From Candidatus Flemingiibacterium merdigallinarum (GTDB lineage: Bacteria > Bacillota > Clostridia > Oscillospirales > CAG-272), in contig CAJFKR010000020.1 of NCBI GenBank assembly GCA_904386005.1, positions 1-35,132 on the forward strand: a stretch of 35,132 bases of DNA. The letters are read 5' to 3'. This document shows, in pieces, positions 4,353 through 35,132 of the stretch. The notes beneath the pieces were generated by a model. That model made no database searches. It was given only the letters and a program-made list of their open reading frames with translations, and was not told the DNA's origin. The stretch's first letter is position 1; every line of letters starts with the position of its first letter. The position numbers and the translations under genes are program-made.

Positions 4353-4391
4353 AAGAAAGGATGCTTTTTACCCGTAAAAGCTATGGATTAA
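4353..4391 (+). promoter_or_regulatory. SD, hairpin and two-codon ORF element (looser copy)
   Basis: AAGAAAGG is followed by the inverted repeat GCTTTT-TACCCGT-AAAAGC (4363-4381), then by ATG-GAT-TAA (4383-4391) and, four bases later, the real ATG at 4396. The layout matches the copies at 7614, 14245 and 35050, but the stem is only six bp with a seven-base loop. No better ribosome site for the gene is present. Confidence 0.45.
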
Positions 4392-4395
4392 CATC

Positions 4396-5871
4396 ATGAA
4401 ACACTACCGCCAATTATCGCTCATGACGGCTATATTGCTAACCCTGCCGCTCATCGCCTGCGGCGAGACCGCCGTTCCTGCCGACGAAACAGCCACCGCT
4501 ACCGCTTCTGACACCACCACATCGCCAAGCTCCGAATATACCGACCCCGGAATCGACTTTGGCGGCGAGACCTTCACCGTGGCCGCTCACGTCTGGGAAA
4601 CCCCATGGCAGCTCGCCAACTATAACGAAGTGTTCATAGACGAGGAAAACGGCGATTTCCTCAATGACGCTATCGTCAAGCGCACACAGCTGATTGAGGA
4701 GCAGTTCAACCTCAACCTCGACATATACCCGATCGCCGAACGAAATAAGCCGACCGAGTTGGTCACAGCCGCGCTCGCCGGCGACGACGTGTATAAGTTC
4801 GGGCTGGTCATGTCGGCTTCGCTGCCGACTATGCTCGGTACGGAAGGTATGCTCGTCGACCTGAACAGCGTTCCGACGCTCGACTTCACGCATTCATGGT
4901 GGGATCAGAACGCAATTGACGAGCTGAATCTGTTCGGCGTCCAGTATGCCGCGCTCGGCGACGTCAATCTATATGCCAAAGGCGGTCCGGTCGTCAACTT
5001 CTTTAATAAGGTAATGATTGAATCGAACGGGCTTGAAAACCCGTATGAGCTCGTACGTTCAGGAAAGTGGACGCTCGACAAGATGATCGAAATGGCGACC
5101 GCGGTCTCGCGCGACCTTAATTCAAACGGCGTGCCCGACATAGACGACTGCTTCGGATTTATGGGTGAGACCGACTCGATGTTCTATTTGCTGACCGGCT
5201 GCGACGTCCGCTTCTCCGAGCATGACGACGAAAAAATTGAAATCACGATTATGTCCGAGCGCTCGGTCGACGCGATCGCCAAAATCGCCGACCTGCTGAA
5301 TGACAAACACGTGACATTGTTCGACGGCGACTGTCCAGCCGGCTACAGCAATGTGTACTTTGAGATTATGATTCCCACTCTCGGCAATAATCGCGCGCTG
5401 TTTTTCTCGAATAACCTGTTAGCGTCGCTGAATATGCGTGACATGGAGGTCGACTTCGGCATCCTTCCGCTGCCTAAATACAATGAGGAACAGGAGAATT
5501 ACGTCTCATTTTCAAATACATGGTTCAACGACTATGTAATAATCCCGTCGACCAACACCGACCTTGAGCGCACCGGCGAGGTTATCGAAGCGATGTGCTA
5601 CTACTCGCAGCAGTATGTCGTACCGGCGTTCATCGACAACGCGGTCATGAACAAGACGATACGCGACGACGATTCAGGCGAGATGATCGAGCTTGTATTC
5701 GATACAATGGAATACGACATCGCGCTCATTTTCAACTGGGGCGGCATACAGGGCACGGTCACCGGAATGAAATCAAAATCCGGTCAGAGCTACGCGTCGG
5801 TATACGAAGCATCGAAAGCGGCTATCCTCGCCGCGGTCGACGAGACAACCGAGGAGCTGAAGAATCGCTGA
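4396..5871 (+). CDS. Extracellular solute-binding lipoprotein (ABC-type, family 1-like)
   Basis: The 491-residue product has a signal peptide with a lipobox ending at Cys22 (PLIAC), then a Thr/Ser/Ala-rich linker to about residue 50. A two-lobe periplasmic-binding fold follows (GETFTVAAHVWETPW; ELVTAALAGDDVYKFGLVMS; an acidic DLNSNGVPDIDD loop; FSNNLLASLNMRDMEVDFGILPLPKYNEEQ). This is the pattern of the orphan solute-binding lipoproteins common in gut Clostridia, which bind sugars or oligosaccharides for ABC importers. No permease or ATPase gene is adjacent, so it would have to use a transporter encoded elsewhere or act as a sensor. The gene is preceded by a consensus promoter and an unusual SD-hairpin leader and followed by a terminator, so it is monocistronic. 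The divergent AraC gene is the likely regulator. The substrate is unknown. Confidence 0.88.
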   Translation: MKHYRQLSLMTAILLTLPLIACGETAVPADETATATASDTTTSPSSEYTDPGIDFGGETFTVAAHVWETPWQLANYNEVFIDEENGDFLNDAIVKRTQLIEEQFNLNLDIYPIAERNKPTELVTAALAGDDVYKFGLVMSASLPTMLGTEGMLVDLNSVPTLDFTHSWWDQNAIDELNLFGVQYAALGDVNLYAKGGPVVNFFNKVMIESNGLENPYELVRSGKWTLDKMIEMATAVSRDLNSNGVPDIDDCFGFMGETDSMFYLLTGCDVRFSEHDDEKIEITIMSERSVDAIAKIADLLNDKHVTLFDGDCPAGYSNVYFEIMIPTLGNNRALFFSNNLLASLNMRDMEVDFGILPLPKYNEEQENYVSFSNTWFNDYVIIPSTNTDLERTGEVIEAMCYYSQQYVVPAFIDNAVMNKTIRDDDSGEMIELVFDTMEYDIALIFNWGGIQGTVTGMKSKSGQSYASVYEASKAAILAAVDETTEELKNR

Positions 5872-7613: not shown

Positions 7614-7651
7614 AAGGAAGCCCTCGCTGCGGCGAGGGCAATGGTCTAAAT
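7614..7651 (+). promoter_or_regulatory. SD, hairpin and two-codon ORF element
   Basis: AAGGAAG is followed by the perfect hairpin GCCCTCGC-TGCG-GCGAGGGC (7620-7639), then ATG-GTC-TAA (7641-7649). The real ATG begins at 7652, two bases after that stop. No T-run follows the hairpin, so it is unlikely to be a terminator. The nearest SD for the hydrolase lies on the far side of the hairpin. Confidence 0.6.
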
Positions 7652-8515
7652 ATGACAAAACTGATAGCTGCCTTGCTGGCGGCGATTATGCTGCTTGTGG
7701 CGGCAGCCGGATGTTCACAGCCAGCCCCCGATCAATATGAATCGACCGAGCGAAACGAAATAGTCTACAAATCGATCGACGGAACTGACCTCGGACTCGA
7801 TATATTCTACCCCACCCGACGCGTCTATTCTGACAATCCGACCGTCCTTGTGATACACGGCGGCGGTTGGATTTCGGGCACGCGCGACGAATTCTACCGC
7901 GACTTTGAGCCAATGATAACCGAGCTGCGCTCACGGGGAGTGACTGTTGTCGGCGTCTCCTACCGGCTCGCGGTTGATGGCCGTACCTGGCGCGACTGTC
8001 TCGACGACTGCGAGGACGCGCTCGAATTCCTCATCGACAACGCCGACAGCTATGACATTGATGTCGACAATATCGGCGTTATCGGCTATTCAGCCGGCGC
8101 GCAGCTCGCGCTGATGTGCGCGGTCGAGACTGACGACCAGGTCAAATACTGTGTATCCTTGTCAGCCCCGACCGTGTTTTCCGACAGTAAGGACAGCAAA
8201 TATTACTCGGAGGCATTAAGCTACTACATTTCGCGCGCATTCGACAATGAGTCGACATACGATATGTATAAAGCCAGCCCGATTATCCTGTTGAGCCGGC
8301 GCTGCAAGACCGACTTCCTGATTGTCAACGGCTCGGACGACGTGATTATCCCACCGGCGCACTCGGAGGCTTTCTACAATGAGGCGATTTCGTTTGCAAT
8401 CGACACCGAGCTGATGATTGTCGACGATCTAACGCACATCTACCCGATATATCCCGACTTTGCGAACCTCTGCTCGGACATCGCCGACCGCATAGTTGAA
8501 AATCTAACCGATTGA
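7652..8515 (+). CDS. Alpha/beta-hydrolase lipoprotein (esterase/lipase-like, BD-FAE type)
   Basis: The 287-residue protein has a signal peptide and lipobox (AAAGC, Cys21), so it should be tethered outside the membrane. The hydrolase fold is complete: an oxyanion HGGGW at about 70, the nucleophile elbow GYSAG at about 146-150, an acid in NGSDDVIIPPAHS, and His in DDLTHIYP near the C-terminus. This matches carboxylesterases of the BD-FAE/acetyl-esterase group that strip acyl groups from plant or host glycans or small esters. Its translation start sits two bases after the stop of a two-codon ORF behind a hairpin. No terminator is apparent after its end at 8515. The natural substrate cannot be read from sequence. 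Confidence 0.88.
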   Translation: MTKLIAALLAAIMLLVAAAGCSQPAPDQYESTERNEIVYKSIDGTDLGLDIFYPTRRVYSDNPTVLVIHGGGWISGTRDEFYRDFEPMITELRSRGVTVVGVSYRLAVDGRTWRDCLDDCEDALEFLIDNADSYDIDVDNIGVIGYSAGAQLALMCAVETDDQVKYCVSLSAPTVFSDSKDSKYYSEALSYYISRAFDNESTYDMYKASPIILLSRRCKTDFLIVNGSDDVIIPPAHSEAFYNEAISFAIDTELMIVDDLTHIYPIYPDFANLCSDIADRIVENLTD

Positions 8516-8720: not shown

Positions 8721-8797
8721 GGCCGGGTAGTTCAGCTGGTTAGAACGCTAGCCTGTCACGCTAGAGGTCGTGGGTTCGAACCCCATCTCGGTCGCCA
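8721..8797 (+). tRNA. tRNA-Asp (anticodon GTC)
   Basis: Acceptor GGCCGGG pairs with CTCGGTC (two G-U pairs). The anticodon loop reads CTGTCAC with GTC, the T-arm is GTGGGTTCGAACCCCAT, the discriminator base is G, and CCA is encoded. Confidence 0.96.
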
Positions 8798-8823: not shown

Positions 8824-8899
<76 letters not shown>

Positions 8900-14216: not shown

Positions 14217-14254
14217 TTAAGCCATGACTTCGCGTCAGCAAAATCTTCCTTTTT
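14217..14254 (-). promoter_or_regulatory. SD, hairpin and two-codon ORF element
   Basis: On the minus strand, right after the stop of the PDT-like gene: AAAAGGAAG, then GATTTTGC-TGAC-GCGAAGTC. This is an eight-bp stem kept intact by two G-U pairs. ATG-GCT-TAA (14225-14217) follows directly. The next gene starts 29 bases further on with its own ribosome site, so here the element is not needed for initiation. Confidence 0.5.
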
Positions 14255-33627: not shown

Positions 33628-35022
33628 TTATTTCGCGATTCGCTTGATCCATTTATATCGATTGCAGTGTATCGCGACCGGCAGACACTTGAACACCTGA
33701 TCGCTGTTCAGCACCGCGACGATGAATACCGCCGGCATATGAAGTACATACGCCGAAATAAAGGTCAACGGCATGACTATTCCCCAGGTTGAAATCATGT
33801 TCATATACATGATGAACTTGACGTCGCCGCCGCCCTTGACGATACCGACGCTCGCCGGCATCTGATAGGACATTCCGACCATCGCGAACGACAGCACTAT
33901 CAGCATCCCGTCCGCAATCCGCAGCGCGTTGTCAGAAAGGTCGTACAGACTCAAAAAGGGGATTCGCAGAAAGAAGAGCGCGAAACCGAGGATGATTCCG
34001 AAAATGATGTACAGTATCTGCAAGGTTCGGCTGTAATCCTTGATTATAGTGTCGTCGTCCGGATTTTCGCCGATAGTCTTGCCGATTATGACCGCGGACG
34101 CGCTCGCCTCGCCTATCGCGATAATCTTGACATATTGGTAGATAGTAGTCGCGACCGAATTCGCCGCGATCGCGTCGTCCTCAAGATGACCGAGCACCGA
34201 GGTCTGTATCGGCGTCGCGACGCTCCACAGAAAATTCGACAGCGCCGACGGCCAGAGCACGCGCAGGAAATCGAATAACAGCGATTTCGAATATTTAATT
34301 CCATTTAGACAGAATAATTTTAACTTTTTATCTATGAAGATTATATAAAATAGAATTATCACAAGCTCGAGTATGCGCGAAACTAAGGTTCCGACCGCCG
34401 CACCGAATATACCAAGCTCCGGAAATCCTAACTTTCCAAATATCAGCAGATAGTTGATTCCGATATTTACAAGTAGCGATACAAGCGACACCTTAAGCGC
34501 AAGATGTACCGTCTCGACCGAGCGAAGCGACGACAAGAGAATCGTGCTGATTATGTAGAGCGGATAGGTGAAGCAGATCAGCTTTAAATACTTCGCTCCC
34601 TCGGCGATGTAGTCGGCGTTCTCGGTGAAAATCGACAGCACCCCCGCCGGAAAGAAGCAGGTCCATATGAACACTCCGGCGGCGAATATTATGCCGATCG
34701 CGAGCGCGTAGAAGGTCAGCAGCCGTATCTCCGCCGACTTCTTTTTGCCCCAGTACTGTCCGCCGATTACGACTATGCTGTCGCCGACCGCGAGCGTCAG
34801 CTGCTGTACCATGAATTGTATCTGGTTCACGGTCGCGGCTCCCGACAGCGCGTTCTGACTGTACATACCGAGCATGATATTGTCGGCCATGTTGACGCTG
34901 TATGAAATCAAGTTTTGAAAAATAATCGCGGTCATCAGGCGGACTACCGTCTTGTAAAAGCTCTTATCGCGCGTTAATAGCGGGCGGCGAGCTGCTGTGG
35001 TTGCGTCCATGATTATGACCAT
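33628..35022 (-). CDS. MATE-family efflux transporter, second copy
   Basis: The 464-residue transporter has about twelve membrane helices in two halves. The start could be ATG at 35022, directly after a hairpin, or ATG at 35010 (MDATTAARR). MATE landmarks are LMTAIIFQNLISYSVNMADNIMLG at the first helix, SVETVHLALKVSLVSLLVNIGINYLLIFG in the middle, and a second-half LSFAMVGMSYQMPASVGIVKGGGDVKF. It is most like the multidrug subgroup and is clearly different from the MATE at 6167. Its leader holds two structured elements, the SD-hairpin unit and, further upstream, a three-way junction. The 5' end of the transcript lies beyond the window. Substrate unknown. Confidence 0.92.
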   Translation of the reverse strand: MVIIMDATTAARRPLLTRDKSFYKTVVRLMTAIIFQNLISYSVNMADNIMLGMYSQNALSGAATVNQIQFMVQQLTLAVGDSIVVIGGQYWGKKKSAEIRLLTFYALAIGIIFAAGVFIWTCFFPAGVLSIFTENADYIAEGAKYLKLICFTYPLYIISTILLSSLRSVETVHLALKVSLVSLLVNIGINYLLIFGKLGFPELGIFGAAVGTLVSRILELVIILFYIIFIDKKLKLFCLNGIKYSKSLLFDFLRVLWPSALSNFLWSVATPIQTSVLGHLEDDAIAANSVATTIYQYVKIIAIGEASASAVIIGKTIGENPDDDTIIKDYSRTLQILYIIFGIILGFALFFLRIPFLSLYDLSDNALRIADGMLIVLSFAMVGMSYQMPASVGIVKGGGDVKFIMYMNMISTWGIVMPLTFISAYVLHMPAVFIVAVLNSDQVFKCLPVAIHCNRYKWIKRIAK

Positions 35023-35050
35023 GACTTCGCGTTAGCGAAGTCTACCTTTC
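35023..35050 (-). promoter_or_regulatory. SD and hairpin element at the MATE start
   Basis: On the minus strand GAAAGGTA is followed by the perfect hairpin GACTTCGC-TAAC-GCGAAGTC (35042-35023) and directly by ATGGTCATAATCATGG. Here the ATG is in frame with the gene, unlike the ATG-NNN-TAA of the other copies. Confidence 0.6.
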
Positions 35051-35059
35051 TATGTCGAT

Positions 35060-35114
35060 GTTTTGTGACGGTTTGCGAAGCAAATCGCGGTTGAAGACCG
35101 CGAAGTCACAAAAC
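35060..35114 (-). ncRNA. Three-way-junction structure in the MATE leader
   Basis: The outer stem is GTTTTGTGAC/GTCACAAAAC (35060-35069 with 35105-35114, 10 bp). Inside, CGCGGT-CTTCA-ACCGCG and TTTGC-TTC-GCAAA form two hairpins, so the 55 bases fold into a compact junction. It is read on the minus strand upstream of the MATE gene. It does not match any riboswitch I can name, such as the guanidine or yjdF classes. Confidence 0.5.
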
Positions 35115-35132
35115 TCGTGTCTGAAAATTTAT

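Follow-up and report, generated by a model that had tools for sequence, protein, structure and literature searches.

Candidate split ribosome-binding sites carried by a dispersed palindromic repeat in the genome of Candidatus Flemingiibacterium merdigallinarum

Why should a hairpin be found again and again between a Shine-Dalgarno (SD) sequence and the start codon of otherwise unrelated genes? The question is raised by a 35,132-nt stretch of DNA from Candidatus Flemingiibacterium merdigallinarum (hereafter the window), for which a preliminary description had pointed out four places with the same order of an SD-like AAGG, an inverted repeat and an ATGG, followed by a real gene start. A mechanical scan returned exactly these four AAGG-hairpin-ATGG units, beginning at 4357 and 7614 on the plus strand and at 14251 and 35048 on the minus strand (to which the copies originally given at 14245 and 35042 belong), while 60 dinucleotide shuffles of the window contained 0.05 units on average and never more than one, which confirms that the four units are real. 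Three of them are indeed followed by a gene start, with 12-13 nt between the stem and the gene ATG, but the copy at 14245 is not, since the ATG of the next gene (about 14187) is preceded by a separate SD sequence of its own (AGAGGTGAG).

The plus-strand copy at 7614 comprises the SD core AAGG (7614..7617; the longer motif GAAAGG is conserved in nearly all copies), a hairpin GCCCTCGC-TGCG-GCGAGGGC (7620..7639), one extra A, and an ATG-GTC-TAA (7641..7649) that is not conserved as an ORF across the family; the gene served (7652..8515, +) codes for a lipoprotein-type alpha/beta hydrolase (BD-FAE, PF20434). This copy has diverged, its stem differing in sequence (E 0.04 in the model search described below), and the region 7614-7654 has a predicted folding energy of -19.0 kcal/mol. 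The copy at 4357..4386 (+), of class B type, consists of AAGG, the stem GCTTTT(T)/(T)AAAAGC and ATGG, and the gene served (4396..5871, +), which has no Pfam match, starts 13 nt past the beginning of the stem-proximal ATGG. The class A copy AAGGAAGATTTTGC-TGAC-GCGAAGTCATGG (14222..14251, -), which is not at a start codon, follows immediately on the stop codon that ends the preceding minus-strand gene. Compared with Rfam, the window gives matches only at the genes of tRNA-Asp (8721-8797) and tRNA-Thr (8824-8899).

The fourth copy, on the minus strand, reveals what the preliminary description had not covered, namely that the unit mostly forms the 3'-terminal part of a repeat that is dispersed and about 130 nt long. 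Read upstream from the start codon (35008..35010, hereafter ATG2) of a MATE-family gene (33628-35010), there is a 12-nt spacer ATGGTCATAATC (35011..35022) with an upstream ATG inside (ATG1, which shares the frame of the gene ATG lying 12 nt further on, so that there is no two-codon ORF at this copy), a hairpin P4, GACTTCGC-TAAC-GCGAAGTC (35023..35042), which scores highest among all model matches of the genome (E 2.1e-11), and the SD sequence of the element, SD' GAAAGG (35045..35050), recognized by sequence and by the spacing analysis given below. Further upstream there is a three-way junction, supported by covariation, of P1 (TTTTGTGAC/GTCACAAAA) around P2 and P3 (35061..35113), followed by the 3' half of a hairpin P0 (ATAAATTTTCAGAC, 35119..35132) that is cut by the end of the contig. 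The full element is thus composed of the P0 hairpin, the P1-P3 junction, a linker, SD' and P4, in this order, with the 20-nt P4 hairpin followed by about 12 nt and the gene ATG. Its core is GAAAGG, two bases, a P4 stem of 8-9 bp with a loop of 3-4 bases, ATGGTCATAAN or a relative of it, and ATG, and P4 exists in two sequence classes, GACTTCGC/GCGAAGTC and AGCTTTCGC/GCGAAAGCT. A recognizable upstream P0 is present in 42 examined copies, as GTCTGAAAATAAATTTTCAGAC, GTTTG...CAAAC or GCGTG...CACGC, and is usually followed by the junction; in many copies P0-P3 are eroded and P4 and SD' are kept (in a search that was seeded on P4). The ends of the element, GTCTGAAA... and ...GGTCATAA, carry no obvious inverted repeats, and the empty sites have diverged too far for a target-site duplication to be delimited.

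Across the genome, the pattern AAGGNNG-N19-ATGG has 62 matches, compared to 18 for a reversed control, and the hairpin is present in about 56 of the 62. A covariance-model search, proposed in the preliminary description as the way to check it, found many further copies placed at gene starts: with a model built from 32 copies, at least 129 matches at E<=10 and at least 106 at E<=0.1 were obtained among the 150 of 1792 first-look candidates that were scored, and these counts are probably lower bounds. The search of relatives yielded model matches in 18 of 196 sampled genomes of the same family, representing 12 of 71 genera, and the distribution is patchy, with no matches in most genomes of the family. 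The architecture is present in several other genera, and the order of parts is kept with other sequences in G073, G075, G099, G124, G131, G176 and G184. All 29 candidates scored in G073 were model matches (at least 29 copies). The split-site arrangement appears to have spread independently to high copy in another genus.

The placement at gene starts is pronounced: of the 125 copies tabulated, 108 are followed by an ORF whose ATG lies just 3' of the stem, at a distance of exactly 12 nt in 78. The claim of a conserved hairpin between SD and start codon is supported. Because the model itself was built from copies at starts, we also carried out a separate search with part of P0-P1, which is blind to the start codon. 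It gave 56 matches against one in the control; 34 have a P4 match downstream, eight are cut by contig ends, and some of the other 14 are chance matches in coding sequence. By our reading, roughly three quarters of the true, uncut matches are at a start codon. The genes that bear the element are unrelated and include those for RecG, a HisRS-like protein, MnmA, the SpoIIIAC/AD family, YbeY, peptide deformylase, a PyrK-like protein, ProC, TruB, DapB, PPi-PFK, YbaB and GMP synthase (GuaA). At one locus (L107:1510-2000) two consecutive cluster genes, for an FtsL/DivIC-like protein and then an S1-domain protein, carry one copy each, so the element also works inside operons.

The spacing in these genes is unusual. 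Ordinary genes of these loci have AAAGG at 7-13 nt and GGAGG at 5-8 nt from the ATG, whereas in genes with the element the linear SD-to-ATG distance has its mode at 34 nt, beyond the ordinary 7-13 nt; with P4 excised, the mode is 14 nt, at or just past the upper edge of ordinary spacing. At sites that lack P4, SD and ATG are 13-14 nt apart (GAAAGGTATGGTCATAACTATG in the sibling G005 at L137, GTGAAAGAAATGATCATAGTTATG at L237), and in about six copies tandem P4 hairpins lie between SD and ATG. The spacing, the P4-less sites and the tandem hairpins are what a looped-out hairpin predicts. The likeness to T4 gene 38, drawn already in the preliminary description, is apt: according to PMC3014915, which cites Nivinskas 1999 and Malys and Nivinskas 2009 for the T4 split sites, a hairpin brings the SD-AUG spacing from 22 to 5 nt in gene 38 and from 27 to 11 nt in gene 25, with supporting mutations. 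The arrangement described here shares with them the distant SD, the intervening hairpin that would shorten the path (from 34 to 14 nt) and the covarying stem, with the spacing-restoring structure indicated by sequence and prediction only (P4 pairs, excised spacing 14 nt). It differs in that the T4 cases are single phage genes with reporter and probing data, whereas the element is associated with more than 100 unrelated bacterial genes, is carried by a dispersed repeat and is known here from sequence alone.

How the element came to lie in these sites is suggested by comparison with sibling species, in which the sites are empty, a feature not noticed before. Targeted orthologue searches were made for four genes (SerA, PFK, DapB and TruB). 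The SerA orthologues of the same genus, 82-91% identical, have an ordinary SD-spacer-ATG and no element (GAAAGGTAACTATTATA-ATG in G005, GAAAGGAATCTCCAAAA-ATG in G001), while in the genome of the window GAAAGGACA is followed by the element and AAAA-ATG. In the case of PFK, ATGGAGGAAT precedes the element in the genome of the window and G002 has GGAGGAAAAGAAA-ATG; in the case of DapB, where the copy lacks P0-P3, the site is empty in four siblings; in the case of TruB, relatives have overlapping genes without the element, and the stop codon of the upstream gene comes from the element. With the element absent from all siblings, its gain in this lineage, at a point between the original SD and the ATG, is the simplest reading of the sequences. 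Within the 16 nt that precede P0, 20 of 41 copies contain an SD 5-mer, compared to 5.4% of random positions, which indicates that the element sits behind an old SD. Many dispersed copies at sites empty in relatives are also what is seen with MITEs, and we infer that the repeat has spread as a mobile element. At truB (L125, upstream of 1553), it is the P0 hairpin that provides the stop codon of the upstream gene (GATAAAGTCTGA), and the old SD has decayed compared to the relatives.

Taken together, we consider it likely that these are split ribosome-binding sites similar to those of T4 genes 25 and 38, occurring genome-wide on a palindromic repeat of mobile type. In this reading the unit is the 3'-terminal part of a dispersed, roughly 130-bp repeat situated inside ribosome-binding sites, where the element, placed between the original SD of the host gene and its start codon, would replace the old SD with its own. 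P4 would fold and loop out, reducing the SD-ATG path from 34 to about 14 nt, and the shortened path would let the 30S subunit bind the SD and the gene ATG together. Folding of P4 in the mRNA and initiation at ATG2 across it are inferred from sequence and modelling. GAAAGG would be expected to pair with the anti-SD, as in Clostridia generally; the assemblies of the genus gave no match to the 16S 3' end pattern.

The claim that the stems differ in sequence and keep their pairing is supported by covariation. In an alignment of P4 fitted to the model, with 97 distinct rows, 96.6% of cells pair and 62 cells are changed on both sides, compared to 19.5 in shuffles (none of 500 as high); in an alignment of 17 full elements made regardless of structure there are 29 doubly changed cells compared to 7.1 (again none of 500), with both-side changes in P0, P1, P2 and P4. 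Relatedness is not removed by the shuffling; with slid partners, in which it is kept, no more than eight doubly changed cells are obtained. When RNAalifold was run on a MAFFT alignment made without constraints, it yielded only P0, P2 and part of P4, since P1-P3 differ in length; the structure was therefore set by hand and compared with shuffles and slid partners. According to ViennaRNA, the mean pairing probability of P4 is 0.86, and ATG2 is predicted to be partly unpaired only (mean 0.41).

Alternative explanations concern, on the one hand, the role of ATG1. The interpretation given in the preliminary description, which is partly supported by our results, suggested that the hairpin drives initiation at an ORF of two codons (ATG-NNN-TAA), from which the gene is reached by re-initiation. 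Such ORFs exist in the window at 7641 and 4383; among 104 gene-start copies, however, there is a single one (the copy at 7614, with the window copy at 4363 as a second outside that tabulation), and ATG1 is lost in 25, being replaced by GTGG, AGGG, TTGG, ATAG, AAGG, ACGG and others. On these counts re-initiation as a general mechanism was rejected, and its probability is next to negligible. In 67 of the 104 copies ATG1 shares the frame of the gene, with no stop codon in between, which could be taken to mean that the gene starts there with four extra residues (MVI.) and that ATG2 is an internal Met. The frame, however, follows from the usual 12-nt spacer, and in addition to the 25 copies without ATG1 there are 12 in which it is out of frame or stopped (11 out of frame or ending in an ORF of 3-5 codons, and the two-codon ORF), while orthologous proteins begin at ATG2. 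The distance from SD to ATG1 is 22 nt when linear and 2 nt when folded, both outside the ordinary range, so that in the folded form ATG1 would be too close for initiation and the gene ATG would be at 14 nt. We regard a start at ATG1 as highly improbable; the ATG right after P4 is probably not functional as a start, and translation would begin at ATG2. Gene callers will nevertheless often pick the in-frame ATG1, four codons too early.

On the other hand, the hairpins may have nothing to do with translation. If the repeat were a selfish palindrome whose hairpins act solely at the DNA level, as single-strand hairpins for mobility, its placement at start codons would reflect a target preference and looping in mRNA would be incidental. 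All four hairpins covary, including P0-P3 that have no clear role in SD spacing, and DNA hairpins that mobility requires could likewise make palindromes covary; element sites differ among sibling species, and some copies lie away from start codons with P4 intact. In 14 such copies the pairing probability is 0.91, compared to 0.86 at starts, so that conservation of P4 is not clearly due to selection on translation and may result from recent spread instead. Against this stand the spacing, which nears the ordinary range only with P4 removed, the many copies that keep P4 and SD' with P0-P3 eroded (the search being seeded on P4), and the failure to find a Y1 transposase in the genome or, above the cut-off, in siblings; we judge this explanation unlikely. 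A regulatory leader, on whose hairpins a protein, a small molecule or temperature would act in a regulon of more than 100 genes, would account for a structured, covarying leader common to many genes at a position where translation could be controlled. The genes, however, are unrelated housekeeping ones (RecG, ProC, TruB, MnmA, DapB, PFK, YbeY, SpoIIIAD, deformylase, GuaA), their orthologues in sibling species lack the element, as would not be the case in a riboswitch-like regulon, and no Rfam family matches, which makes a leader very unlikely.

The split site on a mobile-type repeat, which we prefer, has partial parallels among known elements. A match to a known RNA family was rejected, as at the gathering score the window and 15 element loci match tRNA only, and a permissive Rfam search gave sub-threshold noise only. 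An origin from plasmids or phages was rejected too, since blastn of a full element gave no match in either collection. REP/RAYT sequences are likewise palindromes (20-40 bp) of high copy number, and some copies have GGTAG ahead of the P4 stem; in the element, however, the GTAG tag is not conserved (AAGGAAG, AAGGAGG and AAGGATG are common) and the position of a GTAG/CGTC end tag varies, while GAAAGG is conserved. A REP/RAYT identity was rejected on this account and, together with an IS200/IS605-derived one (PATE), because a Y1 transposase (PF01797) was not found in the genome of the window or above the cut-off in siblings, although the draft assembly may miss it. Rickettsia palindromic elements (RPE) are small palindromic repeats of about 105-146 bp, present in many copies and tolerated inside functional gene regions (PMC2229807, PMC10969869), but they lie in reading frames and are translated, whereas the element occupies the spacer between SD and AUG and supplies an SD of its own. 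BOX, ERIC, Correia/NEMIS and similar MITE-like repeats are also structured, intergenic, about 100 bp long, of high copy number, gene-oriented and transcribed, but the reviews consulted mention no placement at ribosome-binding sites or start codons, whereas the distance between the end of the element and the start codon is fixed. A literature search of incomplete coverage found no repeat with these properties.

Hairpins that bridge SD and start codon are known from a few phage genes, and here they apparently occur in more than 100 unrelated genes of one genome. The novelty lies in this scale and in the carrier, namely a structured, dispersed repeat that rebuilds the ribosome-binding sites it sits in. 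We propose, as a tentative and somewhat doubtful extension, a lineage-specific mobile element specialized for ribosome-binding sites, which supplies a new SD and saves the gene by the looped-out hairpin, so that more than 100 genes per genome would be translated via split sites, possibly with tuning or insulation of translation. Should the split-site arrangement be confirmed, the genome would hold a natural library of more than 100 such sites, which differ in their stems and include tandem hairpins and losses, and in which the tolerance of the 30S subunit to structure between SD and AUG can be tested; the repeat would also clearly exemplify an element that survives by rebuilding the site that it disrupts.

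Many contigs break inside P0-P1 of the element, including that of the window (35049-35132), those that start there (C9, C12, C19, C23, C24, C28 and C126) and those that end there (C1, C54, C56, C80, C84 and C86). The element therefore breaks short-read assembly and its copy number is underestimated, and a full-length partner element could be missing from the draft. The tandem hairpins between SD and ATG are found at L103, L113, L116, L119, L130 and L102:4295-4369, with the first stem of the TACTTTGC/GCAAAGTA type. In another copy (G000:C48:7118-7305, the L246 region, seen in L223) the P2 arm is expanded to about five tandem copies of GAAGTCTTCGACTTCGTTT, which indicates that the hairpins of the repeat can multiply in place.
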